DNA of 33,258 bases, taken from positions 1 through 33,258 of IMG/VR virus record IMGVR_UViG_3300011114_000212, one strand, 5' to 3'. Origin of the DNA: a virus. The notes under the pieces are model-generated. The model made no database searches, was not told the DNA's origin, and saw nothing but the letters and a program-made list of their open reading frames with translations. Below are positions 5,010-29,576 of this stretch, in pieces. Made by a program: the position numbers and the translations under genes. Within the stretch, counting starts at the first letter, position 1, and each line of letters begins with the position of its first letter.

Positions 5010-7229
5010 ATGGGATGGGATCCTTTTGAAGCGTTTTCAGAGGCTATTGGAACTAACAAAAGTTCAGGGGCACTTGCTCAAGCAACCGGCAATGTATTGG
5101 CCCCCGGCGGTACGATTGCTCCTTGGGCGGGCAATTTAAACCCGCTTAATCCCGACGCATTAGTTGGTCAGATGACCAGAGACGTTGGTGCTTTAAACCC
5201 ATTTAACCCTGATTCTACGGCGGGCAAAGTCGTCAATAATATTGGCAAGGACATGGCCGCAGATCCGGCTAAATGGGTTGCTATTGCGGCGGCTGTGGCA
5301 ACTGGGCAACTTTGGGCCATCCCCTATATTAATGGGGTAGCCGCCCTTACCAAAAAGAATAGCAGCCCCGAAGAGTGGCTTACCGAAGGTGTAAAAGCTG
5401 CGGCCATTCAAATGGGTGGGGAATGGGTTGCTAGTAATATCGGAGGAGTTGGCCCGCAGACCGACATTACTACCGGAGAAACATTTGCTGGCACAGGCGC
5501 GTCCGGCGCTACTGGATCGGCTGCTGCTGGTTCTGTTGCGGGAAACATTAGCCGCAATATTTTTGCAACTGCCGCACGAAAAGGCAGTACGGATATAAAC
5601 AGTGCAACGATCATAACGAACGCGCTATCAACTGAAGGGCTTAAAGAAGCGTTTGCCCAAATACCGGGGTTCTCTGATTTAAGCAAAGACGAGCAATCTG
5701 CGGGTATTAACGCTTTTAAAGTCGCGTTCAATAAAGATTCAAACGCTGCAACTATGTTGCTGAATCAGGGGTTTCAGGCTACCTACAAAGAATTAAACAA
5801 CAAAGCCCTTTGGACAGGATATAACGATTTAAATCAGCAAAATACCGTTACTAACTACGTTATATCTGGCGGGAGTAAAGAAGACGTTGCTGCCTTTGCT
5901 GACCAAGAAACTAAATTAACCGCTGCATATAACGATTACAGAGCGTACACGGTAAAAGGCGACGCCTACGACGAACTTTGGAACCAATACAACGCCGCTA
6001 CTACGTGGGGCGCAAGAAATAAAATAGCCGCGCAAATGCGAACGGCATGGGCGGACCTTCAAAGCCCAGAAACTATTGCGGGGTCAACTGCTGCGTACAA
6101 CAAATACGCCGATACATGGCAATCCACTAACGCTACTCGGTCCCTTGCGTTTACCGCGCTTAATGAAGGCTGGGACAGTATTACCCAGAAAAACGAAGCG
6201 GCAGCGGCGGGTTTTACAACACCTGAAGCCTATGACACATACCTGACGGACAAAAAAGCTCAGGAAGACGCCGCCACTGCTCAAGCCAAAGCCCAAGCAG
6301 ATGCGCAAGCAGCCATAGATGCAGAAGCCGCAAGAGCAGCTCAAGAAGCTAAAGATGCCGAAGAACAGGCTAAGCGCGTTGCTGACTTTAATAAGGATTT
6401 GACCGGTGGTGGGGTTCAAAATTTAGGTAAAGTTGATACAAATACCGATTTCTATGGCAAAGACTCCACAGGAAAGGGAGCCTATAAGTACGATCCAGAG
6501 ACGGGCAACTACACGTTTACAGCCGATGATGGTTCTACAATAACAATTGATGAAGACACTAATATTGTCGGTGTTACAGAAGCTACGGATACGCCTTGGA
6601 CTGGATTAACTGACACTTCCACTGGAAACATTAGGCTACCAAAACTCCCCTCAGGAAAAACTCCAAATGTGAATGTAAACACTATGAAACAAACAGATAC
6701 GGGATTACCAGCCCTCACACCACTTATGGCTGCTGGGATGTTTGGCGCCTTAACTCAAGACCAAGGATCAGGGTACAACCCCGCGCCGGTACAAGCGCCA
6801 AACGTCACCATGAATTGGAACGCCCAACCAGTTCAGGCGCCAGAAAACGGCATATCGTATGGACAGCAATTTTTGAACCCAACTTACTCGACAGGAGAGG
6901 CTGGCGGTGGTTTAATGTCACTTGCCGCCGGTGGAATGACTGGTAAATTTACCACTCTTGGGTCATACTCGGACGGTGGCCGATTGCTTCGTGGGCCTGG
7001 GGACGGGATGTCAGACAATATCCCCGCTACCATAGCCAACAGACAGCCGGCCCGGTTGGCCGATGGAGAATTTGTAATCCCAGCAGATGTTGTGTCCCAT
7101 CTTGGTAATGGATCTACAGATGCTGGAGCAAAGGTCTTGTATGAAATGATGGACCGGGTTCGCAGGGCGCGGACCGGGAAAGCCAAGCAAGGCAAGAAGA
7201 TCATGCCACAAAAGTTTGTACCGAATTAA
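5010..7229 (+). CDS. Internal/tail structural protein with coiled coil and conserved GEFVIPADVVS tail (739 aa)
   Basis: The N-terminal ~190 residues are Gly/Ala/Asn-rich (LNPLNPDALVG, ALNPFNPDSTAGK), suggesting flexible or membrane-interacting segments. An Ala/Gln/Glu-rich coiled coil lies near residues 410-465. The C-terminal ~110 residues hold a pattern I know from phage virion proteins: GGLMSLAAGGM, a Gly-rich spacer, RGPGDGMSDNIPATI, GEFVIPADVVSHLGNGSTDAGAK and a basic helix. No catalytic motif is seen. The gene sits in a run of virion genes, so an internal core or tail-associated protein is likely. A copy of the TGGTAAATTTACCA palindrome falls in its Gly-rich linker (6941-6954). Confidence 0.7.
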   Translation: MGWDPFEAFSEAIGTNKSSGALAQATGNVLAPGGTIAPWAGNLNPLNPDALVGQMTRDVGALNPFNPDSTAGKVVNNIGKDMAADPAKWVAIAAAVATGQLWAIPYINGVAALTKKNSSPEEWLTEGVKAAAIQMGGEWVASNIGGVGPQTDITTGETFAGTGASGATGSAAAGSVAGNISRNIFATAARKGSTDINSATIITNALSTEGLKEAFAQIPGFSDLSKDEQSAGINAFKVAFNKDSNAATMLLNQGFQATYKELNNKALWTGYNDLNQQNTVTNYVISGGSKEDVAAFADQETKLTAAYNDYRAYTVKGDAYDELWNQYNAATTWGARNKIAAQMRTAWADLQSPETIAGSTAAYNKYADTWQSTNATRSLAFTALNEGWDSITQKNEAAAAGFTTPEAYDTYLTDKKAQEDAATAQAKAQADAQAAIDAEAARAAQEAKDAEEQAKRVADFNKDLTGGGVQNLGKVDTNTDFYGKDSTGKGAYKYDPETGNYTFTADDGSTITIDEDTNIVGVTEATDTPWTGLTDTSTGNIRLPKLPSGKTPNVNVNTMKQTDTGLPALTPLMAAGMFGALTQDQGSGYNPAPVQAPNVTMNWNAQPVQAPENGISYGQQFLNPTYSTGEAGGGLMSLAAGGMTGKFTTLGSYSDGGRLLRGPGDGMSDNIPATIANRQPARLADGEFVIPADVVSHLGNGSTDAGAKVLYEMMDRVRRARTGKAKQGKKIMPQKFVPN
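6941..6954. repeat. Dispersed palindrome TGGTAAATTTACCA, copy 1
   Basis: A perfect 14-bp palindrome inside the Gly-rich C-terminal linker of the 739-aa structural gene, read there as GKFTT. It is the core of the longer copies at 25321 and 29531. Confidence 0.75.
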
Positions 7230-7238
7230 GGAACTACC

Positions 7239-9998: not shown

Positions 9999-12900
9999 AT
10001 GCCAATTTATGAATATCAAGGTCAGCAATATGATATTGCTACTGAAGATCATGCTGCAGCTAAAGCCAAAATTCTTAGTTATCTTGAGACTAAGCCGCCG
10101 CTTTTCTTTGCGCCTAAACCAGCAGAAAGACCGTTGGCGCCAACTATGCCTCCCGAGCCAGAGGCTGGCATTGCATCGTTGCCACAGGTAACAAAACCTC
10201 CAGAAACCGCGCCTGCAGAGTCAAAATACTTAACTGCTGCAAAGTATTTGGCAGAAGTTGAGGCAAGAAAACAAGAGTCTCCTGACCGATCTGTTAGTGA
10301 TGCGGTCTTGGACTCTGGCATTACCTTACTTAAGGGAACCATTGGGTTGCCCGAAGCCTTTGTGGGTTTGGCTGACATTCCAAGCCGCGGGGCCATTGGT
10401 AAATTTCTGGAACGTGCGGGGTACAAGCCCAAAGAAGCAAGTGCAATTCTGGACACTTACTTGTCTGAAGCACAGCAAGCAGCAAACCGAAAGGTCAGCG
10501 AGGCCAAAGGCTTTGTCCCGACCATTCAAGCGTCATTACAAAACCCTAGCACGATTGCCACTTCTATTGGCGAATCCCTGCCTCAGATGATTGGTGGTGC
10601 TGGTGTAGCCAGGGGCTTGTTGAAGGCAGCTCCTGCACTAGGCCCGGTCATTGCTGGCGCTCTTGGTGAAGGTATCTTGGGTGCTGGTTCTGCGGCTGAA
10701 AACATTCGCGCACAGAATGCCGATAAATTACTTACCACTAAACAATCATTGGCTGCTTTAGGTAGTGGTGCTGGCACGGCTTTGTTTGGTTTTCTTGGTG
10801 GTCGTGCTGCTCAAAAGTTAGGTTTTGACGATATAGATACTATGCTTGCAGCTGGAGGCAATCGCGGCGGTTCTAAATCAGTTGCTGACTTTGCAAAACG
10901 GGTATTAGGTTCAGGCGTTTCTGAAGGTGCATTTGAGGAAATGCCTCAGTCTGCCCAAGAAACAGTATGGATGAACTACGCTACAGACAAGCCATTGTTT
11001 GAAGGCGTTTCGGAAGCAATGGCTAAAGGCTTGCTTGCTGGCTTTGGAATGGGTGTTGTTGGTGGAGGTCTGGGATCTCTTAAAGAATCTCAGCAAGCTC
11101 AACAGGATAGATATCAGCGCCCAGTTGGTGGTGAAGCTGAGAAGCTTGCCCGGCAGAAAGGGTTCCTCACACCTCAGGCCGAGCCCGGCATTGCTTCGCT
11201 TGTGCCACCGGTCACGCCAAGCGAAGCCCCCATTGTTGCTACGATGAGGATGAATATTGACGGCGAGGAAACTGTAAAAGTAACCCGTCAAGATGGCAGC
11301 GTAGAGTTGGATGGTGTGCAAGTTATAGCGCCTAAACCCCCGGCGCCACCAGCTCAACCACCCGCAACTCCTCCAGCAGCCCAGCAGCCTATGCCTCAGT
11401 CTGAGTCTATGGACAAAGATTTAATGATGCGTGAGCTTATGGGTCAGCCGGCGTCCTCTCAAATCCCGCCAGTCTCACCGGCAAAAACTACTAACATTGA
11501 TGAAGTTATAAAAGCATATCGTGATGATCCAGATGTTCTTGCTGGTTTACTTGCAGACGATTTAAATGGGCAAACACATTTGACTGGTGAAATACGTCAA
11601 ATTGCAGAAACCTATTTAACAGCTGGACCGGACGTAGGACGATTAAAATTAAAAGAAGATATGCAAAACCCAGATAGTGGGTTTAGTCTTTTGGGTTTAA
11701 CACAACCTGAAATGGACAATTACTTTGCAGAATTAGATCAATATTTAACTGAAAAATCTAATCTATTCAAAGCAAAGCCTGCCGCACCGCCTGAGGCTGG
11801 TATAACTTCGGCATTGCCGCCAGCTGAGCCGCCGCCATCCGAAGTTGAAACTGTAGCCAAACCTGTAGAAGAGATGCCCGTATCTGTTGGGCAAATCTCA
11901 TTTGACGCCCATCCTAAAGGTGCAAAGCCAGCTAAAGTGCCACCCCAGGATACAGGTCGTCCGACAGCCGCCCAAATTCACAACGGCATCATTGATGGCT
12001 GGCAAGGGAACGCAGACAAGTTGCCAGAAAATGTTCGCTCATGGATGACTGAAAAAGGTCTAATTGATGGGAAAAACACTTTGCCGTTGGGGCAACGTTT
12101 GTTGGACACCCTAAGGCAGGCCAGCGATCAGCACAAAAATGACCAGATGCTAGGTGTCATGGAGGCTCAAAGGGCCGGGATTGAAGTGCCAGCTCCTACG
12201 CCTTTGACTACAGCTGAAGCCGATGAGGTGGTTGATAAGTTCCTTGCGTCCAACAAGCCAGCTCCAAAGCCTGCGCCCAAGCCGGCGGCTGTTGCGCCAG
12301 CAGCTCCTGTAGAAACGGCTCCTGTTGAAACAGCTGCGCCGGAGATGACCAAAGCGCAGATTGAACAGCGTTTAAAAACGTTGATGATGGAATCTATCCG
12401 GTCCAAGACTGAAGATCCAGCTCGTGATGCTGAGATGGACAGGCTGACAAAGCAGTTGAAAGGTTTGGAAACTGAGAAAAAGCAGCCCACTCCTAAACTG
12501 AAGCCTACGCCTAAGGCTGAAGCTCCGGTAGACACTGCCGAGCTGGACAAAAAGATCAATGCCGCCCGTAAGAAGATGGAAGCTGAGCCAGAAGGTAGCC
12601 CGGCTTACATCCAGCATCAAAGGGAAATGAAAGCCTTTCAGCAGCAAAAGGGCAAAGCAACAGCAAAGCAAGACTTGAATGATGCGCTTGGTGACTTAGC
12701 CATGCTCATGACCAAGAAGGGCCGCTTAAACATTGTTCCTGAAGATGAACAGCAGCTGCTGCCTATCCTGACTAGGGTTATGGATGCGGCATTCCGGCTT
12801 GGTTACTACAAGTTCAAAGACGCCGCCAAATTCACTCTGGACACAATTCGTGAGAAGCTTGGTGACGATGTTGCAGATCAAATCACCTTAGACCATCTTC

Positions 12901-15900
12901 AGGGTTCCTACATTGGCATGGCCGGTAAGTACCAGGACCAAGGCGCTAGCTCCAAGAAGGAAGTTGTCTCTGTTGAATCCATTGAAGAGCTGCAGGCCGA
13001 GGAAGTTGCAGAGGCTGAAGAAGTTCCTGCCGGTGAGATGGACATCAACAACCCATCTGACAAGTATGAAGTAGCTCAAAGAATCTCTGAGTTCTTCATG
13101 GATGAAGGCTCGTTTGAGAACATCAATCAAGCGCGCAAAATGATCGCTGAGCTGACCGGCCAAGAGATCAAGCCTGGAACCCAAGAAGCCAAAGCAGCTG
13201 ATGAGGCTGTAGAGGTTGGCGTGGTTTTGGCCGCGCGGGACATTGTGGCTTCAGGGCGTCAGTCTAAGCTCACAAGCGATCAGATTTATGACCAGTTGGT
13301 TGATCTGTATGAGCGCCAGCCAAACTTGAGTATGCGCAGTTCTACCAGCGTGGCAGAGCAGGCTTACTCCACCCCTGCTCCTTTGGCCTTTGTGGCCTCT
13401 GAGCTGGCTGGGATCACCAATAAAACACCCGTGTATGAGCCCACAGCTGGAAACGGAATGCTGTTGATTGGTGCCAATGAGGCCAACATTACTGCCAATG
13501 AGTTGAACAAAGACCGCTTTGAAATGTTGGAGCGCATCTATGAAGGTGCTGAAGTTACTCAAGGCAATGCGCTAGAAGCAAATATTGCAAACAGTTCCAT
13601 GCCTGTTGTGATTGCCAATCCACCATTTGGCAAAGTGGGAAATATCAGCAACATCGACCATGACATTGCCATAAAGTCTTTGGTTAGCCTGCAGGATGAT
13701 GGCCGTGCTGTCTTGCTTGTTGGCGGGGTACAGGCAACAACTGAAGATGGTCGCCGTGAGGGCTACAGAAACATTACTAAACGTAAATTTTACTTTGAGC
13801 TGTACAACCTTTACAACGTTGTAGACCACTTTACCGTTGGTGGCAGCATGTACTCAAAGCAGGGTGCAAGCTACCCTGTGGATGTAATCGTTATTAATGG
13901 CGTGGGCAAATCATCCCGCGATCTTCCCGCGGCAGATCTGCCACAAATCATTACCTCATATGAACAACTGAAGGAGAAACTAAATGAAAGTCGCTTGGTA
14001 TCCAGAGGAGATCGTGGCACCAGTGGAGCTGACAGCGGTGTTGGTGCCGCAGGGGAAGCTAAGCCGCAAGGAGTGGGTGGAGGCACTGAGCGACCGAGTG
14101 GCGGCGTTAGCGGAGAAGGAGCCGGACCCGCTGCAGGCGGCAAACGTGGCGTGTCGGAAGCTGGACCTACCACAGGTGGACAACGCGAACCAAGTGGGCG
14201 AGGCGCTGGTGAAGTACAACCTGAATCTACTAACAAACCTAAATTGCCAGCAGAGGGAAAACCAGTTCCCAGCCAAGGTGGGCGAGTCGAAGGAAGAGGC
14301 AAGGCAAGCACTGAAGGACGTAAACCTGGAGAGCTGGGTGGAGTTAGCGTTGTCTCAGGTGAACGTGTCGGATCTAGCCTAGCAAGCCGGGCTGACCAAG
14401 AGCAGGAAACTGCAGGCCAAGTCAGCTACACCCCGTTCTCCCAAGCAAATGCCGTGGGCACATTGGTTCCTAGAGCCATGGCCCAGTCCATTCAGGAATC
14501 GATTGCACGTATTGAATCTGACGTTGGTAACGTTGATGAGTATGTGGCAAATGCTTTGGAGATGGAGCCTGAAACACTTCGGGAGCTGTTCTCAGCTGAG
14601 CAAATTGATGCTTTGACCCTAGCTATCCGCAACGCTGAAGCTGGCAAAGGCTTCATCATTGGCGACCAGACCGGCGTGGGTAAAGGCCGTGTTGTTGCGG
14701 CCATGATCCGTTTTGCAATGATCAATGGCAAAGTTCCAATCTTTGTAACCGAGAAGCCCAACCTGTACTCTGACATGATCAGGGACTTGGATGATATTGG
14801 GATGACTGATGAGCTTAGCCTTGATACAGGCAGGCCCAAGATCCTGATGACCAACGGCGATGCAAAGGTTCCATATACGCTGTTGCGTAAATCAGGCGAT
14901 AGGTTTATTGAGAACAACATGACCCTCAGAGCCCCGGCAAAAAAGGCTAAGTTGGATGGTTTGTTGAAGCAAATGGCTGAAAGTGGTGACATTGGAAACT
15001 ACAAAGTAATTTTCACCACATACAACCAACTGCAGACTGTCAAGGGTCAAGCGACAGAGCGCCAACGGTTTGTTAAAGCGATAGGAGCTGATAACTATTT
15101 GATCTTTGACGAAAGCCACAACGCTGGTGGAGCTGGAGAAGGTCAGGCCAGGACTAAAGAGCAACGTGCAAAGGAAAAAGCTGGTGAAAGTATTGTCACC
15201 GGCCGCGCATCCTTTGTGCGTAACCTTGTCCAGAACGCATATGGCACCTTCTTCTCGTCTGCTACATATGCCAAACGCCCAGATGTGATGGACCTGTACT
15301 CCAGCACAGACATGAAACTGGCTGTGCAAAAGATGGACGATCTTGCTGGCGCCATCAAAGAGGGTGGCATTCCAATGCAGCAGATCGTTGCCAATATGCT
15401 GACTCAAGCGGGTCAGTACATTCGCCGCGAACGCACCTTTGCCGGGGTTTCCTATGACACCCAAGAAACAAAGGTAGATAAACAGACCGCGGAAAACATG
15501 GCAACGTCCATGCGCGACATTTTGGAGTTTTCTAGGAACAAAGAAATAGTTGTCAAGGGAATCAAGAAAGAGCTAGACAAAAAAGGCGGCATTGCCAAAG
15601 AGATGGGCGAGAAGACTACGGTCCAAAGCGCCAACTTTGGCTCAACCATGCACAACTTGATTGATCAGATGTTGCTTTCGCTCAAATCGCAGGACTCAGT
15701 TCGCTTTGCGGTGGAGCGTTTGGAGGCTGGTGAAAAGGTTGTTTTGACTGTGTCAAACACCATGGGATCATTCTTGCAAGATTATGCAGACGAAATGGAT
15801 TTAAATATCAACGATACAGTTGATCTGTCGTTTGCAAATTTGTATCTGCGGTATTTGGAAAAGCAGCGTGAAATCACAATTAAGAAGCCCGGCGGTGCAA

Positions 15901-18900
15901 CAGAAAAGTATCGCCTGACTGATAACGATCTTGGGCCTGTCTTGACCCAGCAATTCAATAACATCAAAACGTTTATTGAGAACGCCGGGTTTGGTGCAGC
16001 TCCCATTTCTCCAATTGACTATTTGCACAGTGAGCTGCGTAAGGCTGGTTACAAGACCGAAGAGATCACCGGCCGCACTGTTACGCTGAACTATGACAAC
16101 TACTTTGACAGCAAAAACCCCGTGTTGGCGTCACGCACCGCTACTATTGAGCAACGGGTTAATACTGTTAAAGACTTCAACAGCGGCAAGTTGGATGTTT
16201 TGATCTTGAACCAAGCCGGTTCAACGGGCATATCTTTACACGCCTCTGAGAAAGTCTCAGACAAGCGTAAGCGCCATATGATCCTTGTTCAAGCTGAGAA
16301 GAACATTGATACCCATATGCAAATGCTTGGCCGGGTGCATCGTACCGGGCAAGTAGTTACACCTGCATACTCACAGATGATGGCAGACATACCAGCTGAG
16401 ATGCGTCCAGCTGCGGTGTTGCTCAAGAAGATGGCGTCACTGAGCGCCAATACCACCGCATCACGCAAGTCGGCCGTGGCTGCAGAGGGCGCTGTTGACT
16501 TCATGAATGATTACGGCGGTCAGGTGGCTCAAGAGTATTTGAGGGACAACCCTGAGATATATGAAGCCATTGGCGGCAACCGTATCGTTGAGTTGGTTGA
16601 TGATCCAACTGAAGCAGACGAAAACGATATTCGCCGGTTGACCGGTTACATCCCAATCCTGCCTATTGCTCAGCAAGAAGAAGTCTACAAAGACATCATT
16701 GAGCGTTACAACGATTTGATTGTTCGTGAAGACAGCATGGGAACCAACAAGCTGGAAGCTAAAGCCAGCGACTTGGATGCCATAACCTTGTCTTCCAAGG
16801 CCATTACTGAGGACAAAGGTGACTACCAATCTGTGTTTGCCCAGCCTGCCTATATGGAACAGGTTGATGTCAAGCGCACGGTCAAGCCTTACTCAAAAGA
16901 GGAAGTCCAACAGATGGTCAAGGACAATCTGGATGGAAAGAGCGCCAGCGAAAGCTCAAGTGCTGCATGGCATGACTTGAGTGACCGGTCAAAAGCATTT
17001 GGCGCTGCTGAAGTTGCACGAATGGAAGGGTCTTTAGAGCCTGATCCAATCAAGATTGAGAAATTCAAAAGCCAGCTCAACGCGCAATACACCCACGCCA
17101 AGTCTGTATTGACCAACTACCCAATCGGTACGCCGCTACTCATCAAGAACAGCAAAGGCTTGTTGGTCAAGGGTGTAGTGGTCAATATTGAGAACAAGCG
17201 CAAGACCAAGAATCCTGCGGCTGGGTCTGATTGGAAGATCTCGATTGCTTTGGCTGATGGTGATGCCAAAGTAATACCAATGAGCTTCTCCCAGATTGGG
17301 ACCACATACGACTTCAAGCTTGAGCCTGAAACCCCGTACTTCAATCCTGAGACTCAGCAGTTTGATTACATCCCCATGTTGGACCTGTTCGACAAGGGGG
17401 CGACTGTTCGCCGCGAGAAGCGATGGATGGTGACCGGCAACATCCTGGCTGGTTTTACAGCTGTGGATAACCGTGGTCAGATCATGACCTACACCAAGCA
17501 AGATGGGACTACGGGCCAGGGCGTACTGATGCCCCGTATCTTTGACTTTGAGAAGCAGCAGAAAGACGCGCCGGTCAAGCTGCGTAGCGTCAATGATGTA
17601 CTAAACTTCTTTGAACAGTTTGGCTATGGCTCTAAAGTTACCACTGCCAATGGCATTCTTTCCATAACCAACAAGGGTGGCTCCTACCGATTCACAACCC
17701 CCAGCTCAAAGCGCGAGGGTGGATCGTTCTACCTGGACCCTGACCTGACTGACATTGTTGGCGACTTCTACAAGTCCGGCCAAGCCATGAACGCGCAGAT
17801 CAGCGCACCTGACCGGCTCAAGAATGCCATTCAGTACTTGCTGGCCGAGCGCGGTGAGACACTTATTGCCGGGTCAAACAAAGACGAAGCCCGTAAGCTG
17901 TTTGGCCTAGACACTCCAACCACCAAGCCACCGGTGATTGATGCGCCAATAGCCCAAATCGACTTCACTAACGAAGCTGTAGAGGCGCAAAACGACATAA
18001 TCGAAGCGCAGATAGACAAGAACCTCAGACAAGAGCAGATTGTTTCGCTTGAGAAGTTTTACGAAGCTGATCGTGGATCGGATAAGTTCCTCAACAGTCT
18101 TCGCAATGACATCGTCACCTTTATTACCAAAGGTGCTGAAGCAGTACATGGGAAGATTCGCCAAATTATTCGGGCGTTGTCCAGCGGGTTGTTGTCTGTG
18201 GCGGTTGTTTTCAACCCCATGAACACAAGCCAGATCCAGAACTATGTTCTATCGCCCAAAAATGTGGTGACGGTTGAGCGGCAGGTTTATGCAGCAGTGC
18301 CTGCTTCTGTGGCTGACAAAATGTCACCCGCTGCCAAGTCTGCCTACGAAACAATCCTGCCTGCCGTTAAAGATGATTTGAAGGCACGGGATAAGCTGCT
18401 GATCATCACCGACAAGCCAACTGGAAGAATCTTTGTATTTGACCCAACCGGCAAGCCGATTCTGGACAAGAAGGTTTTGGTTGGAGCTGTCCAGCCAAAG
18501 GCTAGCGATCCAGGCAACTCTGACTATTACAAGGGCAACAACGACAACCCTGCCAACCGCATAACGCCGGCCGGGCTGTTCCAGATCAAGTTGATCGATG
18601 CTGCCAAGGGCGCAGATGAAAAGCGCACCGCTGGCGAATACGACTTTGGAAAAGTGTTTGTCTACGAAGACGAAGGCTACTGGGTTACGACCATGCACTC
18701 AGTTTGGCTGCATGAGAAAGACGCCAAGAAACGAGCAGCTGCCTTAAAGAGTGATGATCCTTTAGATTCTCGCTACTCCTTTGGCTGCATCAACGTAGAC
18801 AAAGAAACGTACAAGTATTTGCTGGACAACCATGAAAAGCAAATTGACGGCGCAATGATGTTTGTAGTCCCAGACAACCAAAAGGCTGTCATGGACTTTG

Positions 18901-21900
18901 TGACCAACAAGCTGGGCATCAAGGATGATCTGACCCGCATGGGCGTTACGCCGGTGACGGAAACAGTTACCGTTCCTGTGCGTGGAGCTGGTCAGATTGC
19001 CGGGGTTGAGCGCAAGGTTGTGGGCAAAGGGGATGAAGGTATTCCCCTGGCAAATTTACCACCTGGGCGTTCTCCTCAGTTGACCATGGGGGCGCAGCTG
19101 GTGCAGTCTGGCGCCATGACCGCCGCTGAGTACGATGAGCTGGTTAACTTTTACAAGCCCATCAAGGCATACGCAGAGGCGATAGAGCCTGCAACCAACG
19201 ATCAGGTCTATGACGCCCTGGACAAAGTCAAGCGTGAGCGCATGGACCCTGAGATTGAGAATGGCACCCCTGTCGGTCTGCGCCTGGATATCCCGGCGTT
19301 TAACCGCAAAGGTGTGTACGTTGTTAGCATCCATCAAAAGGGAACCAAGAGCGGCCCCGGCCGTGTGCTTGGCTACTCCAGCGTTGCCAAAGCGCGGGAC
19401 GTTACCTTTGGCCTGGGCAATGAGCGGGATGCACTGAAGATCGCTGCCGGCGCTGCCAAGGATGCCTTGCAAACTGTTGAGGGCAAGTACGTCAATATCA
19501 GCCCTGAGGCCGCATATCGCCAAGCTCAAGAGGCCATATCTGATCCAGCCTGGGTGCAGGTCGGCGTAGATCCTACCCGCCACTCCTACTTCTACGACAA
19601 GAACAACACCCAACCTGTGGTGGCTGCAGAAGAAGTCATCCAGATCGGGAACATGGTCCTGGCTAAGAACGTCACCTATGGAAGCAAAGATGACTTCTTG
19701 TTTGACCAGGGGCTGAACACTGATGAGAACTTCATCACAGACCGGCAAGACTTGATTCGCCGGTACGCAAAGATTCGTCAACGCCGCGCATACATCCTGA
19801 CCAAGTTTGCCAAGGGCGAAGCAGGATTGAATGAGCAGGCCGAGATGCATGGCCTAGCTTCAATTGCCAAGTCTCTAAAGATGGACATTGACTTGTCCAA
19901 GAAAGAACGCATCAGTGCAGGCAACTTCTTTGCTGATGCTACGGCGCAATGGGATGCTGGAAACATCAGCGGGGATGTGTATGCGGCCATCGAAGCTTTG
20001 TACAAGAAGTACCCGTTTGTGCTGGAGCAGCTCAAGTTTTCAGTACGCCGCCAGCCTGAGGAAAGAAACGCAGCCGGTCAGTTCATGGCCCTACCTCGCA
20101 TTGTGCGTTTGTACAAAGGTACTGTTGGTGTCACAGATCCAGTGACCATTCGTCACGAAATTGTTCACTCGCTTGAGCAAATGATGTCGGCCGAAGCCGC
20201 GGCTGATGTGATCATGGACTGGTCTGACAAGCTTGGCAAAGCCATTAAGACCGACAAGAACCCCAAGGCACAAGCGTACTTCCGTTTGGTCATGGAGTTT
20301 TTGAATAAACCAACTACAGAGTCATACAACGCCGCGATCAGCGCAATGCCAAGTTATGACTACTATCAGTACATCAACCCCTCTGAGTACTGGGCGGTCA
20401 ATGCTGAGAAGCTCATGCAGCGCAAGCTGGGCTCTGGCTGGGACCGTTTTGTCTTGGGTGTTCGTAAGCTGCTGGAAGGCCTGAAGTCAATCTTCGGATT
20501 TGACAACAACTACGCCGTCCACAAAGCCTTTGATGCCATCATGTCGGCCAAGCAGGAGCGCACTACCAAGAGGGTGCTGAACGACTATGTGCTGACTAGC
20601 AAGATGGCTTTGCTAAACCAGAACATTCGCCGCAACTACAAAGGTGGCGCAGCTCCCCTGGCTACGTGGGATTCAGCTGAAGAGTCCAAGATGGACTGGT
20701 GGGTTCGCAAAGTTGCGGATCGTCACGTTGATACCAAGCGGGTGGTTCAAGCTATCACCGAAGAGATCGGGGATATTGGTGACCGTTGGGACCCATACCT
20801 GAACGAGGAATTGTTCCACGGCCGTACATCTACGCAAACGCAAGACTTCCTCAAAGATGAATTGCAGCCACTGCTCAAAGACATGGTGGCCCGTGGTGTA
20901 CAGCTTGATGAGTTTGAGGAATACCTTCACAACCGTCACGCCGAAGCTCGTAACAACTTCATCGCCACGCGCAATCCCAACATGCCGGATGGCGGTTCTG
21001 GAATCTTTAACCAAGAAGCCCAGGACTATCTGTCTAAGCTTGACAAAACCAAGAAGGCCAACTTTGAAGCTTTGGCTGCAGAGATTGACAAGATTGTTGA
21101 TCGCACACAAGAGCTGCTGGTATCTAGTGGCCTGGAAACACAAGAAACCATTGATGCTTGGCGTAAAAACTTGCCCTTCTATGTTCCATTACAGCGGGAT
21201 CAAGATGAGCTGGACTTTGTTAACCCAAGCTCCGGCATGGGCAAAGGCTATTCAACGCGCGGCGGTTTCTCGCGGTCAGCCACTGGCTCACTGAAGTCGG
21301 TTGTCGATATCTTTGGCAACGTTGCATTGCAGCGTGAAAGGGCAATCGTCAGGGCAGAGAAAGCTCGTGTTGGCCGGGCTTTGTACGGCTTGGCAATCAT
21401 GGCGCCAAACCCAGACTTTTGGATGCCCATCAACCCTGAGGCAATCAAGAATAAGAAAAAGTTGCTTGCTGAGCTGCAAGGCCTTGGCCTGTCACCATCG
21501 GACGCAGAGAACATCCTTCTGGAGCCGCGTACAGCTCGTATCGACAAGGTGACCGGGCTGGTTACTTACAAGGTCAATCCTGCACTGCGTAACTCGCCTA
21601 ACGTGTTCCACGTTCGTGTAGATGGCAAAGATCGTTTCATCATCTTTAACCCAGGTGATCCGCGCGCGAAGAACATGGTTGAAGCACTAAAGAACTTAGA
21701 TGCTAACCATGTCAGCGAAGGCCTTGGCACAGTTGCTGAAGCCACAAGGTTACTGGCCGCGATGAACACCCAGTACAACCCTGTATTTGGTGCGTGGAAC
21801 TTTGCGCGGGACGTAAGTGCTGGAACAATTAACTTGGCAAGCACTCCAATTGCTGACCGCAAGAGCGAAGTCTTGTTCAATTCCACTTCGGCATTACGGG

Positions 21901-23345
21901 CGATCTACCGTGACCTGCGCGGCAAAGGTGCAACCACACCGCAAATGCAGCAGTGGATTGACTTGTTTGACCGATTCCAAAAGGCCGGTGGGCAAACTGG
22001 GTATCGTGAGCAATTCAGCCGCAGCAAAGAGAAGGCAACAATCATCCAGCGCGAGTTGGCAAAGCTTGATCGTAGCAATGCTCGTAAAGCAGCTGACGCA
22101 GTATTCAACTGGTTATCGGACTACAACGATGCCATGGAAAACGCTGTTCGTTTGTCAGCGTTCAAAGCGGCCCTTGACTCAGGGATGACCGAAGACCGTG
22201 CAGCTAGCCTTGCAAAGAACCTGACCGTCAACTTCAATCGCAGAGGCCAAATCTCTGCAAATGCCAATGCTTTGTATGCGTTCTTTAATGCATCAGTGCA
22301 AGGCACAGCCAGGATGATTGAGCTGCTCAAGAGTCCGGCCGGCAAGAAGATCATTGCTGGCGGCATCTTGATCGGTGTTATTCAGGCGGTTGCTTTGGCT
22401 ATGGCTGGCTTTGACTCAGATGAGCCGCCAGAGTTTATAAAGAACAAAGGCTTGATCATCCCAGTCGGTGGTGGAAATTATTTGGTAATTCCTATGCCAT
22501 TGGGCTTGAACGTGTTCCCCAACATTGGCCGTCTGATCACTGAATATGCTTTGAGCAATTCCGGCGGGATGACTGGAAAGCGGACGTTGGGCAAGACCAT
22601 CACCAGCATTACTGCAGCGGTGTTTGATGCGTTCAATCCTTTGGGATCAAGCGGCCTTGCGCAAACCATGGCGCCGACATTGTTGGACCCTTTTGTTGCC
22701 CTGTACGAAAACAAAGATGCCTTTGGCCGGCCCATCTCCAAAGAAGATCGGGCAACTTCACCAACGCCTGGGTATCAGCGCAGCCGCGAGACAGCAACCA
22801 CGTTCAGCAAAGGCTTGGCTTATGCAATCAACTATCTGACCTTTGGTGGGCAATACAAGAAGGGCGTCTTTAGTCCAACGGCTGATGACATTGACTACTT
22901 GATTGGTCAATACACCGGCGGTGTGGGCCGGGAAAGCATGAAGTTAATTGAAGCTGCATCAGCCAAAGCCAAGGGTGAAGAGCTGCCGTCTTACCGGGTT
23001 CCATTGGTTGGCAAAGCTTATGGCGAGACAACCACCCCGGCCGCTATTGCTGACAAGTTCTACAAGAACGTCACCATGATGGCTGAGCATGAGAACGCCC
23101 TCAAGATGATGCAAAAGAACCGGGTGAGTACAAGTGAATACTTGAAAGAAAACCCTGAAGCTCGTTTCTACAATCAGGCCAACCAGTTAGAAAACCAAGT
23201 TTCTAAGCTAAACCAGACGAAGAAGAAGCTTCAGGAAATGGAATCAACCCCGGCCAGGGAAGCTCAGATCAAGCGGCTTGATGAGCAAAAGACCAGGATC
23301 ATGTTGAACTTCAACAATAGAATCAAGGCTAGCGAATCGAAATGA
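9999..23345 (+). CDS. Giant polyvalent protein: methylase, strawberry-notch helicase, L,D-transpeptidase, metallopeptidase-like (4448 aa)
   Basis: This single ORF fills 40% of the window; the start has GAGG upstream. Order by residue: short N-terminal domain (1-30); hydrophobic/Gly stretches (~180-270, ~344-360); Pro/Ala linkers to ~850; a conserved lead-in helix domain (~858-978); an N6-adenine methylase with EPTAGNG (~1147) and NPPF (~1207); a Gly/Ser-rich linker (~1329-1470); an SF2 strawberry-notch helicase with Walker A GDQTGVGKG (~1555), DESH (1704-1707), GSTGISLHA (~2074) and QMLGRVHRTGQ (~2106); a YkuD domain (~2798-2961; H2900/H2905, SFGCIN with C2930); HEIVH (3386-3390); and an LPD38-like region (~3700-4190) with a coiled-coil end. 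This is the polyvalent-protein plan described for phages and conjugative elements, whose members are thought to enter the host with DNA and act in defence evasion and envelope passage. The virion role here is inference. Confidence 0.9.
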   Translation: MPIYEYQGQQYDIATEDHAAAKAKILSYLETKPPLFFAPKPAERPLAPTMPPEPEAGIASLPQVTKPPETAPAESKYLTAAKYLAEVEARKQESPDRSVSDAVLDSGITLLKGTIGLPEAFVGLADIPSRGAIGKFLERAGYKPKEASAILDTYLSEAQQAANRKVSEAKGFVPTIQASLQNPSTIATSIGESLPQMIGGAGVARGLLKAAPALGPVIAGALGEGILGAGSAAENIRAQNADKLLTTKQSLAALGSGAGTALFGFLGGRAAQKLGFDDIDTMLAAGGNRGGSKSVADFAKRVLGSGVSEGAFEEMPQSAQETVWMNYATDKPLFEGVSEAMAKGLLAGFGMGVVGGGLGSLKESQQAQQDRYQRPVGGEAEKLARQKGFLTPQAEPGIASLVPPVTPSEAPIVATMRMNIDGEETVKVTRQDGSVELDGVQVIAPKPPAPPAQPPATPPAAQQPMPQSESMDKDLMMRELMGQPASSQIPPVSPAKTTNIDEVIKAYRDDPDVLAGLLADDLNGQTHLTGEIRQIAETYLTAGPDVGRLKLKEDMQNPDSGFSLLGLTQPEMDNYFAELDQYLTEKSNLFKAKPAAPPEAGITSALPPAEPPPSEVETVAKPVEEMPVSVGQISFDAHPKGAKPAKVPPQDTGRPTAAQIHNGIIDGWQGNADKLPENVRSWMTEKGLIDGKNTLPLGQRLLDTLRQASDQHKNDQMLGVMEAQRAGIEVPAPTPLTTAEADEVVDKFLASNKPAPKPAPKPAAVAPAAPVETAPVETAAPEMTKAQIEQRLKTLMMESIRSKTEDPARDAEMDRLTKQLKGLETEKKQPTPKLKPTPKAEAPVDTAELDKKINAARKKMEAEPEGSPAYIQHQREMKAFQQQKGKATAKQDLNDALGDLAMLMTKKGRLNIVPEDEQQLLPILTRVMDAAFRLGYYKFKDAAKFTLDTIREKLGDDVADQITLDHLQGSYIGMAGKYQDQGASSKKEVVSVESIEELQAEEVAEAEEVPAGEMDINNPSDKYEVAQRISEFFMDEGSFENINQARKMIAELTGQEIKPGTQEAKAADEAVEVGVVLAARDIVASGRQSKLTSDQIYDQLVDLYERQPNLSMRSSTSVAEQAYSTPAPLAFVASELAGITNKTPVYEPTAGNGMLLIGANEANITANELNKDRFEMLERIYEGAEVTQGNALEANIANSSMPVVIANPPFGKVGNISNIDHDIAIKSLVSLQDDGRAVLLVGGVQATTEDGRREGYRNITKRKFYFELYNLYNVVDHFTVGGSMYSKQGASYPVDVIVINGVGKSSRDLPAADLPQIITSYEQLKEKLNESRLVSRGDRGTSGADSGVGAAGEAKPQGVGGGTERPSGGVSGEGAGPAAGGKRGVSEAGPTTGGQREPSGRGAGEVQPESTNKPKLPAEGKPVPSQGGRVEGRGKASTEGRKPGELGGVSVVSGERVGSSLASRADQEQETAGQVSYTPFSQANAVGTLVPRAMAQSIQESIARIESDVGNVDEYVANALEMEPETLRELFSAEQIDALTLAIRNAEAGKGFIIGDQTGVGKGRVVAAMIRFAMINGKVPIFVTEKPNLYSDMIRDLDDIGMTDELSLDTGRPKILMTNGDAKVPYTLLRKSGDRFIENNMTLRAPAKKAKLDGLLKQMAESGDIGNYKVIFTTYNQLQTVKGQATERQRFVKAIGADNYLIFDESHNAGGAGEGQARTKEQRAKEKAGESIVTGRASFVRNLVQNAYGTFFSSATYAKRPDVMDLYSSTDMKLAVQKMDDLAGAIKEGGIPMQQIVANMLTQAGQYIRRERTFAGVSYDTQETKVDKQTAENMATSMRDILEFSRNKEIVVKGIKKELDKKGGIAKEMGEKTTVQSANFGSTMHNLIDQMLLSLKSQDSVRFAVERLEAGEKVVLTVSNTMGSFLQDYADEMDLNINDTVDLSFANLYLRYLEKQREITIKKPGGATEKYRLTDNDLGPVLTQQFNNIKTFIENAGFGAAPISPIDYLHSELRKAGYKTEEITGRTVTLNYDNYFDSKNPVLASRTATIEQRVNTVKDFNSGKLDVLILNQAGSTGISLHASEKVSDKRKRHMILVQAEKNIDTHMQMLGRVHRTGQVVTPAYSQMMADIPAEMRPAAVLLKKMASLSANTTASRKSAVAAEGAVDFMNDYGGQVAQEYLRDNPEIYEAIGGNRIVELVDDPTEADENDIRRLTGYIPILPIAQQEEVYKDIIERYNDLIVREDSMGTNKLEAKASDLDAITLSSKAITEDKGDYQSVFAQPAYMEQVDVKRTVKPYSKEEVQQMVKDNLDGKSASESSSAAWHDLSDRSKAFGAAEVARMEGSLEPDPIKIEKFKSQLNAQYTHAKSVLTNYPIGTPLLIKNSKGLLVKGVVVNIENKRKTKNPAAGSDWKISIALADGDAKVIPMSFSQIGTTYDFKLEPETPYFNPETQQFDYIPMLDLFDKGATVRREKRWMVTGNILAGFTAVDNRGQIMTYTKQDGTTGQGVLMPRIFDFEKQQKDAPVKLRSVNDVLNFFEQFGYGSKVTTANGILSITNKGGSYRFTTPSSKREGGSFYLDPDLTDIVGDFYKSGQAMNAQISAPDRLKNAIQYLLAERGETLIAGSNKDEARKLFGLDTPTTKPPVIDAPIAQIDFTNEAVEAQNDIIEAQIDKNLRQEQIVSLEKFYEADRGSDKFLNSLRNDIVTFITKGAEAVHGKIRQIIRALSSGLLSVAVVFNPMNTSQIQNYVLSPKNVVTVERQVYAAVPASVADKMSPAAKSAYETILPAVKDDLKARDKLLIITDKPTGRIFVFDPTGKPILDKKVLVGAVQPKASDPGNSDYYKGNNDNPANRITPAGLFQIKLIDAAKGADEKRTAGEYDFGKVFVYEDEGYWVTTMHSVWLHEKDAKKRAAALKSDDPLDSRYSFGCINVDKETYKYLLDNHEKQIDGAMMFVVPDNQKAVMDFVTNKLGIKDDLTRMGVTPVTETVTVPVRGAGQIAGVERKVVGKGDEGIPLANLPPGRSPQLTMGAQLVQSGAMTAAEYDELVNFYKPIKAYAEAIEPATNDQVYDALDKVKRERMDPEIENGTPVGLRLDIPAFNRKGVYVVSIHQKGTKSGPGRVLGYSSVAKARDVTFGLGNERDALKIAAGAAKDALQTVEGKYVNISPEAAYRQAQEAISDPAWVQVGVDPTRHSYFYDKNNTQPVVAAEEVIQIGNMVLAKNVTYGSKDDFLFDQGLNTDENFITDRQDLIRRYAKIRQRRAYILTKFAKGEAGLNEQAEMHGLASIAKSLKMDIDLSKKERISAGNFFADATAQWDAGNISGDVYAAIEALYKKYPFVLEQLKFSVRRQPEERNAAGQFMALPRIVRLYKGTVGVTDPVTIRHEIVHSLEQMMSAEAAADVIMDWSDKLGKAIKTDKNPKAQAYFRLVMEFLNKPTTESYNAAISAMPSYDYYQYINPSEYWAVNAEKLMQRKLGSGWDRFVLGVRKLLEGLKSIFGFDNNYAVHKAFDAIMSAKQERTTKRVLNDYVLTSKMALLNQNIRRNYKGGAAPLATWDSAEESKMDWWVRKVADRHVDTKRVVQAITEEIGDIGDRWDPYLNEELFHGRTSTQTQDFLKDELQPLLKDMVARGVQLDEFEEYLHNRHAEARNNFIATRNPNMPDGGSGIFNQEAQDYLSKLDKTKKANFEALAAEIDKIVDRTQELLVSSGLETQETIDAWRKNLPFYVPLQRDQDELDFVNPSSGMGKGYSTRGGFSRSATGSLKSVVDIFGNVALQRERAIVRAEKARVGRALYGLAIMAPNPDFWMPINPEAIKNKKKLLAELQGLGLSPSDAENILLEPRTARIDKVTGLVTYKVNPALRNSPNVFHVRVDGKDRFIIFNPGDPRAKNMVEALKNLDANHVSEGLGTVAEATRLLAAMNTQYNPVFGAWNFARDVSAGTINLASTPIADRKSEVLFNSTSALRAIYRDLRGKGATTPQMQQWIDLFDRFQKAGGQTGYREQFSRSKEKATIIQRELAKLDRSNARKAADAVFNWLSDYNDAMENAVRLSAFKAALDSGMTEDRAASLAKNLTVNFNRRGQISANANALYAFFNASVQGTARMIELLKSPAGKKIIAGGILIGVIQAVALAMAGFDSDEPPEFIKNKGLIIPVGGGNYLVIPMPLGLNVFPNIGRLITEYALSNSGGMTGKRTLGKTITSITAAVFDAFNPLGSSGLAQTMAPTLLDPFVALYENKDAFGRPISKEDRATSPTPGYQRSRETATTFSKGLAYAINYLTFGGQYKKGVFSPTADDIDYLIGQYTGGVGRESMKLIEAASAKAKGEELPSYRVPLVGKAYGETTTPAAIADKFYKNVTMMAEHENALKMMQKNRVSTSEYLKENPEARFYNQANQLENQVSKLNQTKKKLQEMESTPAREAQIKRLDEQKTRIMLNFNNRIKASESK
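13984..14382 (+). CDS. Overlapping gene nested in the giant ORF (132 aa, function unknown)
   Basis: ATG 13984 has a textbook Shine-Dalgarno (AAGGAG at 13971-13976, seven-base spacer) and an in-frame TAA immediately before it. The frame (+1 relative to the giant ORF) stays open for 132 codons to TAG at 14380-14382. The product looks like a folded, helical, acidic protein with Trp, Tyr, Cys and Leu spread normally (MKVAWYPEEIVAPVELTAVL at the start, ESWVELALSQVNVSDLA at the end). The giant frame over the same bases encodes only Gly/Ser/Arg/Pro-rich linker. Third positions of the nested frame are mostly G or C. I do not recognise a family. The overlap covers exactly the linker between methylase and helicase domains. 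Confidence 0.7.
   Translation: MKVAWYPEEIVAPVELTAVLVPQGKLSRKEWVEALSDRVAALAEKEPDPLQAANVACRKLDLPQVDNANQVGEALVKYNLNLLTNLNCQQRENQFPAKVGESKEEARQALKDVNLESWVELALSQVNVSDLA
19048..19061. repeat. Degenerate copy of the dispersed palindrome
   Basis: TGGCAAATTTACCA differs from the core by one base. It lies in the linker of the giant protein just after the L,D-transpeptidase region (read as LANLPPG). It may be chance or a decayed copy. Confidence 0.35.
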
Positions 23346-25051: not shown

Positions 25052-25765
25052 TCACTCCTGGGTAAATTTAGTTTTTGCTTTCTTGAACTTGGCAAGCAGC
25101 TCGGCATAAATGGTTGGGGTTTCCTCCTTCAGGCGGTCATAGTGAACCCGGTTCTTCTTGAAGATGGTATTAATATCCTCTGAAGTACCGGCGTATCGCA
25201 TAGCCAGCTCTGTAGCGTCCACGATTGCAGTCGCCCAATCGCCGTCTTCGCGTTCGGTAATGGTGATGTTCCACTCACCTGGGTGGCCGCTAATCACCTT
25301 AACCTTATCATTTTGAGTAAGTGGTAAATTTACCACCTCCTTTACTACCTCTTTTGGCACAAGCTTTGGCACGGGCTTGGGCGGGGGTTCTGAGCCAGCT
25401 GATGCATCGATGATGTCATGCTCAACGATCTCCATCGCTGCCAACCACAGGTAACGGCGTTGGTAACTCTCAACAGCGCCCAGGTTTTGAATGGGGTGGG
25501 CACCCTTGAGGTTGGCCTCGGCCATGGGAGAGGTGATGGTGAGGGTTGTCCCATCTTCTGTATCCGTGATGCACAACCGGGCGTAGTCGGTGTCAAATGA
25601 GACAACGCTGCACAGCTGCAGATCATGGAAGATTTGCATCGTCTGGGGCAAGAAGTCCCCCAGTTCAAAGTACTTGTACCCGGCAAACTTGTTCTCGCCG
25701 GATTTCTTCAGCTCAGTGTTTTGCAGTTTGATGCGTGCTTGCATCAATTTTTTGTGGACGGTCAT
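25052..25765 (-). CDS. erf: ERF-family single-strand annealing protein (237 aa)
   Basis: The N-terminal ~120 residues show the ERF pattern: FAGYKYFELGDFLPQTMQIF, an LCIT-type strand pair with DGTTLTITSPM, and the diagnostic GAVESYQRRYLWLAAMEI (residues 96-113). ERF proteins form rings that anneal complementary strands in phage recombination and circularisation. A Pro/Lys/Val-rich linker (about 126-149) separates a smaller C-terminal domain that may contact partner proteins. A 16-bp perfect palindrome lies in that linker (25321-25336). The start is coupled by ATGA to the gene before. The neighbouring Cas4-like exonuclease would supply the single strands. Confidence 0.9.
   Translation of the reverse strand: MTVHKKLMQARIKLQNTELKKSGENKFAGYKYFELGDFLPQTMQIFHDLQLCSVVSFDTDYARLCITDTEDGTTLTITSPMAEANLKGAHPIQNLGAVESYQRRYLWLAAMEIVEHDIIDASAGSEPPPKPVPKLVPKEVVKEVVNLPLTQNDKVKVISGHPGEWNITITEREDGDWATAIVDATELAMRYAGTSEDINTIFKKNRVHYDRLKEETPTIYAELLAKFKKAKTKFTQE
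25321..25336. repeat. Dispersed palindrome GTGGTAAATTTACCAC, copy 2
   Basis: A perfect 16-bp palindrome located in the codons for the flexible linker of the ERF protein, read there as VVNLP. It shares the 14-bp core with the copies at 6941 and 29531. Confidence 0.75.
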
Positions 25766-28377: not shown

Positions 28378-28471
28378 ACCGTTTTTTGCTGAAAACCGGC
28401 AGTATGTAGATCGGCGCGTTGCTTTTTTCAGAAATAGCGCATTTAGAGTACCTATTTTTTCATGAGGGTTG

Positions 28472-28501
28472 TTGACATCTGTTGAGACTTCATGGCACAA
28501 T
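28472..28501 (+). promoter_or_regulatory. Promoter for the structured RNA
   Basis: A perfect TTGACA (28472-28477), an 18-bp spacer ending in an extended -10 TGG, and CACAAT (28496-28501) predict a start near 28508, just before the folded RNA segment. Confidence 0.6.
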
Positions 28502-28507
28502 CGCAAC

Positions 28508-28628: not shown

Positions 28629-28748
28629 GCTTTCCACTTCCTTCCGTGTAGCGCCAGCACGGGGGACAGAAATCCTCCCCCCGCCGCATGTAAAGCGACC
28701 AGACCCTGCCGGTGGTAGCAAGGGGAAGACTGCAAAGACCGACTCGGC

Positions 28749-28898
28749 GTGACCCGCGCCCCTAAGTACCGCAAGGGAAAGGGATATACAGGACCGGAAT
28801 TAATTCCACATACCCAATATCGCTGGGAGATGATCGACTGCTTGGCTAAACCTCGGCAGATCGGGATTCCAGGGGTGGGGCGGACTGGCCTCCGATAG
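28749..28898 (+). CDS. Possible small basic protein, GTG start (49 aa)
   Basis: GTG 28749 opens a 49-codon frame that reads like protein: VTRAPKYRKGKGYTGPELIP, then YRWEMIDCLAKP and a GVGRTGLR end. It is basic with Trp, Tyr and Cys, unlike random non-coding frames. The start forms a GTGA overlap with the end of an ORF from 28492 that I otherwise reject. There is no good Shine-Dalgarno directly before it. If real it would need read-through of the RNA terminator or its own promoter. Function unknown. Between the RNA and this frame (28629-28748) I see only a G5/C5 hairpin (GGGGGA...TCCTCCCCC near 28661-28682). Confidence 0.4.
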   Translation: MTRAPKYRKGKGYTGPELIPHTQYRWEMIDCLAKPRQIGIPGVGRTGLR

Positions 28899-28931
28899 TT
28901 TCATAGCGAGACAAGGCGTCCTGGTAAAGAG

Positions 28932-28978
28932 CGTGAATCCCCCTAATACCGCAATGCAGTGGGTGGGTGGGGTTCACG
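28932..28978. other. 10-bp hairpin between micro-ORF and promoter
   Basis: CGTGAATCCC (28932-28941) pairs with GGGTTCACG-type bases at 28969-28978 with one G-U pair, around a 27-base loop. No T-run follows, so it is not a classical terminator. It is the only structure noticed in 28899-29010. Confidence 0.4.
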
Positions 28979-29010
28979 GGTGAGGGTGCTTGGGCCTGCT
29001 CTTGCAACAG

Positions 29011-29040: not shown

Positions 29041-29058
29041 CCAGATCAGGAGGTACAG

Positions 29059-29181
29059 ATGGAGACAATACTTGTTGTAATGATGTTGGGGTTTGTTGGC
29101 GCCGTAGCAGCTGGAGGAGTGAGCTGGATGCTGATGGCTTTGTGGAGTGCAATGGAAGAAAAGGAGCGGTGGAAAAAATGA
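29059..29181 (+). CDS. Single-TM micropeptide (40 aa)
   Basis: ATG 29059 has the strongest ribosome site in the window (AGGAGG, six-base spacer) and is the first gene after the promoter at 29011. The 40-residue product, METILVVMMLGFVGAVAAGG followed by VSWMLMALWS, is one membrane helix (about 3-29) with a charged tail, EEKERWKK. Early, highly translated membrane micropeptides in phages are candidates for superinfection exclusion or host-membrane modulation, but nothing here proves that. The stop overlaps the next start (ATGA). Confidence 0.75.
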   Translation: METILVVMMLGFVGAVAAGGVSWMLMALWSAMEEKERWKK

Positions 29182-29576
29182 TTGACTATGTATCAACTCA
29201 AGCTGGAATTGACTCTCAGTCTGCAGCTTGCGCGCGCTTATTGGCTTCGGTGATAGCGAAAGCTTTGGAAGATTTGGCAATAAAGCCTACTGAGAAAGAA
29301 TGGAAGAACGGCGTCAACTTGCAAGCTGAGCCGACCCGTAGTGTGCGGTTTTTCAAGAGTAAGTTGTTTCCCCACTATGCGGCCCTGATTGGCATGGATG
29401 CTGAATCGTTCATGTACTACCTCACTCAAGAGGGTAAGAAGGGGCACCGGGGCAGCAGGTTTGATGAGATGGACTATCGAACGATCCGGTCCCGGCTGCG
29501 TTGGAAACTGCCCCCCATGGGCTCAAGGCGGGTGGTAAATTTACCACCTTCAGAAAACGAGAGGGGGGACAGATGA
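29178..29576 (+). CDS. Hypothetical helical protein (132 aa)
   Basis: It starts at ATG 29178, coupled to the micropeptide stop; a longer upstream frame runs through the promoter and is not credible. The product is helical: AACARLLASVIAKALEDLA, then TRSVRFFKSKLFPHYAALIG and FDEMDYRTIRSRLRWKL. Basic residues and the SRLRWK block would fit nucleic-acid binding. The last 20 residues, which include VVNLPP encoded by the 18-bp palindrome at 29531, look like a loose tail. No family is recognised. The stop overlaps the HNH gene start. Confidence 0.7.
   Translation: MIDYVSTQAGIDSQSAACARLLASVIAKALEDLAIKPTEKEWKNGVNLQAEPTRSVRFFKSKLFPHYAALIGMDAESFMYYLTQEGKKGHRGSRFDEMDYRTIRSRLRWKLPPMGSRRVVNLPPSENERGDR
29531..29548. 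repeat. Dispersed palindrome GGTGGTAAATTTACCACC, copy 3
   Basis: The longest copy, 18 bp and perfectly self-complementary, in the tail codons of the 132-aa gene and 24 bases upstream of the HNH start. It contains the 16-bp copy at 25321 and the 14-bp core at 6941. Confidence 0.8.

Follow-up and report, generated by a model that had tools for sequence, protein, structure and literature searches.

A dispersed palindrome in a viral genome record: probable sites of a ParA-less ParB/KorB/Noc-like phage protein, kept in permissive codons

The virus record IMGVR_UViG_3300011114_000212 of IMG/VR, analysed here over its entire length of 33,258 bases and referred to as the window, looks like a tailed-phage fragment. 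It carries four dispersed copies of a short palindrome, TGGTAAATTTACCA or a close variant, each lodged in the codons of a different gene. The copies and the open reading frames (ORFs) that hold them are as follows.

6941..6954, site 1: perfect TGGTAAATTTACCA, 14 bp, read GKFT, towards the C-terminus of a structural-region protein
5010..7229, + strand: this protein, 739 aa, carrying site 1; its last ~70 residues are conserved
19048..19061, site 2: TGGCAAATTTACCA, one mismatch to TGGTAAATTTACCA and fitting the wider pattern TGGNAANNTTNCCA, read LANLPP, in a polyvalent protein
9999..23345, + strand: this polyvalent protein, 4448 aa, with Strawberry-notch helicase, YkuD and LPD38, carrying site 2
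25321..25336, site 3: GTGGTAAATTTACCAC, 16 bp (14-mer at 25322-25335), read VVNLPL, in the ERF linker
25052..25765, - strand: ERF single-strand annealing protein, 237 aa (Pfam PF04404, E 2.3e-8), carrying site 3
29531..29548, site 4: GGTGGTAAATTTACCACC, 18 bp (14-mer at 29533-29546), read VVNLPP, near the C-terminus of an orphan ORF
29178..29576, + strand: this orphan ORF, 132 aa, carrying site 4

A first-pass annotation had described perfect arms of 14, 16 and 18 bp at 6941, 25321 and 29531, together with a one-mismatch copy at 19048, and had judged the set far above chance; both statements were borne out, the shuffle expectation being 0.14, with four copies in 0 of 100 shuffles. Beyond these four, no further match to TGGTAAATTTACCA at up to two mismatches was found in the window. 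Palindromes in general are not enriched, because those of ten bp number 33 against 32.5 expected, yet TGGTAAATTTACCA alone accounts for three of the four palindromes of 14 bp. Synonymous codon reshuffling gave a repeated 14-bp palindrome in none of 300 windows; the real window has three copies. A chance origin of the repeat is thus excluded by the shuffles, the palindrome census and the codon reshuffling. The only other perfect palindrome of at least 14 bp in the window is a single 16-bp one, ACGCTGGTACCAGCGT, at 28362-28377. The location of the copies in linkers could be confirmed for the ERF copy by ERF alignments. The claim that the reading frame differs between copies held only for the copy at 6941, which alone is read GKFT, whereas those at 19048, 25322 and 29533 share one frame (LANLPP, VVNLPL and VVNLPP), and the residues that follow also resemble each other (VVNLPLTQNDK at site 3, VVNLPPSENER at site 4).

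With ERF homologues as query, 80 related loci were fetched. Counting the word in relatives, as had been suggested early on, gave a divided answer, in that the exact word is rare and palindromes of the same layout are abundant. Across 81 loci, L127 included, exact TGGTAAATTTACCA occurs once (L073), which is also the sole match at up to one mismatch in 1.1 Mb of loci related by ERF or the structural protein, and 26 whole relative records hold one near-match; conservation of the exact word across relatives is ruled out by these counts. A different palindrome, TGGCAACGTTGCCA, recurs in three relatives (L049, L051 and L086), with one copy inside the same ERF linker. Whole records contain up to 17 copies of it within one mismatch, a 27.7-kb record having 17, a 15.8-kb record 12, a 45-kb record 10 and a 32-kb record 9; the reversed control gave none in all 26 records, six of which are also free of any real match. 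The wider pattern TGGNAANNTTNCCA is found 96 times in total over 22 records, compared with 2 for the reversed control (15 versus 0 in G038), and the richest related-phage records hold 4 to 17 palindromes of this form each. A scan for GTGGCAACGTTGCCA returned at least 120 stretches, and among the 120 matches listed, 20 encode relatives of window proteins. The 16-mer GTGGTAAATTTACCAC is present in 42 viral stretches, which have no common context and gave no ParB match.

Among 71 distinct ERF proteins of the fetched loci, five carry a consensus site, always in the linker, in the form TGGCAACGTTGCCA and read VATLP. The first-pass annotation had named as a counter-case homologues with the same residues and no palindrome; none were encountered, as aligned site-free ERF homologues also lack VVNLP/VATLP at this position. 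It could be argued that VVNLP/VATLP is a short linear peptide motif and that the DNA palindrome merely follows from its codons, given that three of the four window copies share a frame and similar downstream residues. This is very improbable: site 1 is read GKFT, the 113 distinct TGGCAACGTTGCCA sites use all three frames (66, 33 and 13, with one outside any ORF, chance matches in unrelated genes included), and none of the 300 codon-shuffled windows repeats a 14-bp palindrome.

A second explanation, one of the two readings put forward by the first-pass annotation, is a small mobile palindromic element, similar to the Rickettsia palindromic element, which inserts where proteins tolerate it. The copies do lie in linkers, the ERF linker of the window is longer than those of its relatives, and some bacterial copies are paired inside longer similar flanks (L249, L250 and L251). 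The closest ERF relatives, L047 and L048, have no consensus site in ERF, and the linker is too variable between relatives to reveal an empty site. However, the 113 distinct TGGCAACGTTGCCA flanks share no invariant position beyond the 14 bp (the best is G at position -1, 130 of 226), and no longer repeat unit was seen around the window copies or in these flanks. Both arms change jointly between phages and track the recognition helix of a ParB-like protein described in the following, which is unexpected for an inserting element, and such an origin is considered quite unlikely.

The site-bearing phages encode a ParB-like protein, whose own gene holds a site shortly after its helix-turn-helix (HTH) motif. 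A tblastn search with this protein matched 53 loci, the window not being among them, and two ParBs used as queries fetched 29 and 60 loci. Seventy non-redundant parB-containing loci, which came from searches with ERF or ParB and hence not from the site, were divided by the first residues of the recognition helix. The 35 loci with an SH[TPVI] helix have 42 sites in 487 kb, with at least one site in 20 of them, as opposed to 2 sites in 542 kb for the 35 loci with other helices; 29 permuted half-site controls gave means of 0.3 and 0.4, respectively, and a maximum of 3. In a survey of 93 unique ParB ORFs, SHTF and SHTY helices pair with TGGCAACGTTGCCA, SHPF and SHVFI with TGGTAACGTTACCA or a close variant, SHVT with TGGTAATATTACCA and SHPT (L073) with TGGTAAATTTACCA; SKMTVGR is among the helices that have no site. 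Of 11 loci with threonine as helix residue 4, 8 have C at base 4, compared with 1 of 8 for P or V (p 0.02, modest); a CG centre accompanies F or Y as residue 5 in 11 of 14 loci, and T in none of 3 (p 0.03, again modest). In L073, exact TGGTAAATTTACCA lies 51 bp upstream of the start of a parB with the helix SHPTV. Sites inside parB just past the HTH occur in several phages as well as in Blastocatellia and Lentisphaerae genomes. Site presence and core thus follow the ParB recognition helix, as an association with a helix class defined post hoc. The suggestion that the palindromes are binding sites kept in permissive codons gains support from these same-layout palindromes of relatives, whose differing cores covary with the helix. 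Near non-SH parB genes, a de novo palindrome search was unconvincing apart from 12-mers that recur in L323. Twelve-mers with three copies each within one mismatch occur in L323 (helix SNTFV; GCCAACGTTGAC) and in L328 (helix SHVFV, with no consensus site; GCCAAAATTGGC), in each case with one copy near or inside parB; these possibly represent further site classes.

Structural work was carried out on the ParB of the relative L260, whose recognition helix begins SHTFV. The AlphaFold model (pLDDT, the predicted local distance difference test score, 83.7) predicts a ParB-N fold, an HTH at residues 143-164, a disordered segment at 175-196 and a coiled coil; the sites in this parB encode residues 175-179 of the disordered linker. 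The best structural match of the model is KorB (Z 12.9 over 135 residues, root-mean-square deviation 2.8), Foldseek returned ParB, Noc and KorB at E 3e-8 to 1e-5, and PHROG 1033 (ParB-like partition protein) was matched at E 1.5e-16, so that the protein is predicted to combine ParB-N and HTH in a fold of the ParB/Noc/KorB type. Divergent boxes GxxRxx[AG] and N..[HN]G are present in all 31 ParB-like proteins, and the ParA-binding motif [LFI]G[KR]G[LFI] in none of the 31. ParA (PF13614) was found in 0 of 22 records, many of them fragments, with the control detected in 14 of 14 genomes. TIGR00180 was matched in 1 of 6 proteins only, at 15.1 bits against a cut-off of 58.45. When aligned by profile with the Spo0J/parS structure 4umk, SHT falls opposite SRA. 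In Caulobacter ParB and Noc, S172 and R/Q173 are described as located at the DNA, with 173 as a specificity residue (PMC7383237), and the SH of the phage helix probably corresponds to positions 172-173.

As regards the window itself, the position of its parB can be projected from two ORFs close to its right end.

31732..31950, + strand: 72-aa ORF, the synteny anchor for parB
32423..33013, + strand: second anchor ORF, with homologues in L086 and L274

In six loci that hold a homologue of the 72-aa ORF, parB is located 1,290-1,867 bp downstream of the homologue on the same strand, which projects the parB start of the window to 33,240-33,817, the record ending at 33,258. For the second anchor, the homologues in L086 and L274 (both from one contig) are followed by parB at a distance of 1.14 kb, again on the same strand. 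When all right-end ORFs are taken together, 25 of 72 gene-locus pairs (20 loci) have a same-strand parB within 4 kb downstream and the remainder do not. The most similar right-end relative, L350 (88% identity over 401 nt and 82% over 523 nt), projects the gene to about 33,550; its parB has the helix SHVFV and a site inside the gene, and its 57.6-kb record has 15 sites. The parB of the window probably starts at or just past the right end of the record. Its helix would be SHPT-like. A later set of 80 loci, fetched with the 72-aa ORF, contained parB in six: the two SH-helix parB loci are both site-bearing (L350 with 6 sites, L273 with 1, the latter already in the earlier set), the four non-SH loci have no site (L412 among them being also an earlier record), and one locus devoid of parB, L372, has one site.

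Genomes were scanned for two copies 20-50 bases apart, which gave five stretches in four genomes. In Variovorax sp. WDL1 (8.1 Mb) all five copies lie within one 11.8-kb prophage-like segment adjoining integrase-like and tail-like ORFs, and in a Blastocatellia metagenome-assembled genome (MAG; 8.3 Mb) all six lie on one phage-like contig, whose ORFs include tail-, portal- and terminase-like ones (the ORFs in both cases named by reading translations, with no family search). In these two genomes the palindrome is thus not a host-wide signal. A Gemmataceae MAG has nine exact TGGCAACGTTGCCA copies over 7 contigs and no ParB match in the genome; these copies may belong to a different repeat. Some of them (L249 and L251) are paired ~50 bp apart in similar flanks. 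A host-wide word of the type of an uptake sequence, Chi or HIP1, copied by phages, would agree with dispersed, mostly intragenic copies and with the Gemmataceae distribution. Against this stands the confinement of every Variovorax and Blastocatellia copy to one phage-like segment, as well as the difference in words between related phages, so that this origin is hardly credible.

Several observations weigh against a ParB-like protein as the binder. No parB was found within the 33,258-base record, its position off the end being itself a projection, and the exact word is tied to a helix type by L073 alone. The canonical nucleotide-binding boxes are altered (GERR in 0 of 31 proteins, EN..R in 0 of 31), and Pfam ParBc was unmatched at E<=0.1 in four proteins. 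The SH[TPVI] class was set post hoc from the 93-ORF survey, with 3 of the 35 'other' loci lacking a readable helix. Fifteen of the 35 SH[TPVI] loci have no site, L275, also SHPTV, has none in 5.3 kb, and the nearest ERF relatives L047 and L048 have a parB (SHMTV) and no sites. Individual pairings deviate as well, namely L335 (SHPF with TGGCAACGTTGCCA), L094 (SVTLV with TGGCAACGTTGCCA), and L310 and L313, where SHTF goes with T or A as the fourth base. Furthermore, site-rich records lacking parB exist (G004, G013, G016, G018, G020, G021 and G022, fragments of 5.7-32 kb), and no parB was seen in the Variovorax prophage or in the 9-copy Gemmataceae genome either.

Along these lines, the sites could belong to another DNA-binding protein, such as the 96-aa protein of ribbon-helix-helix (RHH) type, the 132-aa orphan or a further repressor, with an indirect ParB association. 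Besides the records lacking parB, it speaks for such a binder that the 132-aa ORF has a site near its own end and, together with an HNH-like ORF at 29501-30361, occupies the position of parB in L047 and L048. The orphan, however, has no homologue in other site-bearing phages, nor any at all in viral contigs or phage records. The arrangement with the HNH-like ORF looks like a local replacement. The RHH-like protein, proposed as the binder by the first-pass annotation, is not the best candidate, because its RHH match is weak (E 0.057) and it also occurs in site-free relatives, L047 and L050 among them, whereas the ParB helix tracks the sites. As the recognition-helix match is specific to ParB, another binder is judged unlikely.

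A few further features of the window may be listed. It also encodes a PD-(D/E)XK nuclease and a GIY-YIG protein, and the HNH-like, zinc-rich ORF is 70% identical in L066/L068. The stretch 28466-28985 has scant obvious coding content and is 82% identical to L350 over 523 nt; inside it lies a strong inverted repeat (28537-28558 and 28604-28625), partly common to L273 and with no Rfam match, as in the Rfam search of the whole window, which is possibly a terminator, a structured RNA or an origin. In several small ORFs at 31282-32509 a junction, GGGGACAAGCATGAC or a variant of it, recurs in 4-5 copies, and the C-termini are related (RARGQA), which suggests a tandemly duplicated gene family.

Most likely, then, the palindromes are sites of a phage-encoded, ParA-less ParB/KorB/Noc-like protein, kept in permissive codons; the TGGTAAATTTACCA set is most likely a real, lineage-specific member of a dispersed family of ParB-type sites. 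The protein would comprise an N-terminal ParB/sulfiredoxin-type nucleotide-binding fold, followed by the HTH, a linker that is disordered and, at the C-terminus, a coiled coil, and probably binds the palindromes directly. In the dimer, each HTH would read one half-site TGGNAA, and the first residues of the recognition helix would determine the variable bases, for which reason each phage lineage would have a palindrome of its own. The recognition or loading sites would be scattered every few kilobases along the phage genome, and since phage genomes are packed with genes they would be held in codons of linkers and tails, the linkers of parB and ERF included; this placement fits selection on DNA where the peptide matters little. 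Loading of the KorB or Noc kind along the phage genome may then serve transcription control or the organisation of phage DNA during infection, most likely the function by analogy with these proteins.

The simplest account thus invokes a ParA-less DNA-binding protein that resembles KorB or Noc and has its loading sites spread over the phage genome. Its best structural match and nearest working analogue is KorB with its OB sites on plasmid RK2, which has the same ParB fold and HTH; the sites can be far from the controlled promoters, and KorB is described as sliding from distant sites and repressing promoters over >1 kb (PMC11790492). KorB-OB is, however, a plasmid system, whereas the present one is from phage and its clamp activity is putative. 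Noc of Bacillus and Geobacillus with its NBS sites shares the fold and is a ParB paralogue with genome-scattered sites (PMC4331003), but works in cell-division control at the membrane. The chromosomal and plasmid ParB-parS systems share the ParB-N fold, the palindromic site and the HTH. The phage sites within parB resemble the parS of B. subtilis that is located within spo0J. In ParB-parS, too, recognition-helix residues set specificity (PMC7383237), but the phage system lacks ParA (22 records), the ParA-binding motif and GERR or EN..R (31 of 31 proteins), and its sites are dispersed over the phage genome. The stoperators of cluster A mycobacteriophages are likewise many short sites for one phage protein, distributed genome-wide (PMC9283540); unlike the present palindromes with their ParB-like protein, they lack symmetry and are recognised by an immunity repressor that acts as a monomer. 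Phage members are included in a survey of the ParB-CTPase fold from 2025, whose main text does not contain the string 'palindrom' (PMC12704722). Among titles and abstract starts of the open-access literature, no recognisable report of dispersed ParA-less phage ParB sites with a helix-site correspondence was found. The fold and the site logic are known; the dispersed ParA-less phage version and the helix-site correspondence are apparently new.

An odd repeat thereby becomes a testable protein-DNA system, in which genome sequences directly yield the likely sites together with a partial recognition code, and the natural variants of helix residues and site cores provide a ready series for the evolution of ParB/Noc specificity. 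The system also shows a phage way of keeping recognition sites in permissive codons, and its dispersed, ParA-less layout raises the question of what use a DNA clamp is to a phage. As a tentative and rather speculative answer, a ParA-less ParB clamp in a widespread group of environmental, apparently lytic phages might load at about one site per 4-6 kb throughout the genome and coat, mark or organise phage DNA in infection, with lineage-specific pairs of protein and site. If so, the coating could serve silencing, compaction, shielding from host enzymes or the timing of packaging, and, because few helix residues set the protein-site pair of each lineage, co-infecting phages would keep separate 'addresses'.

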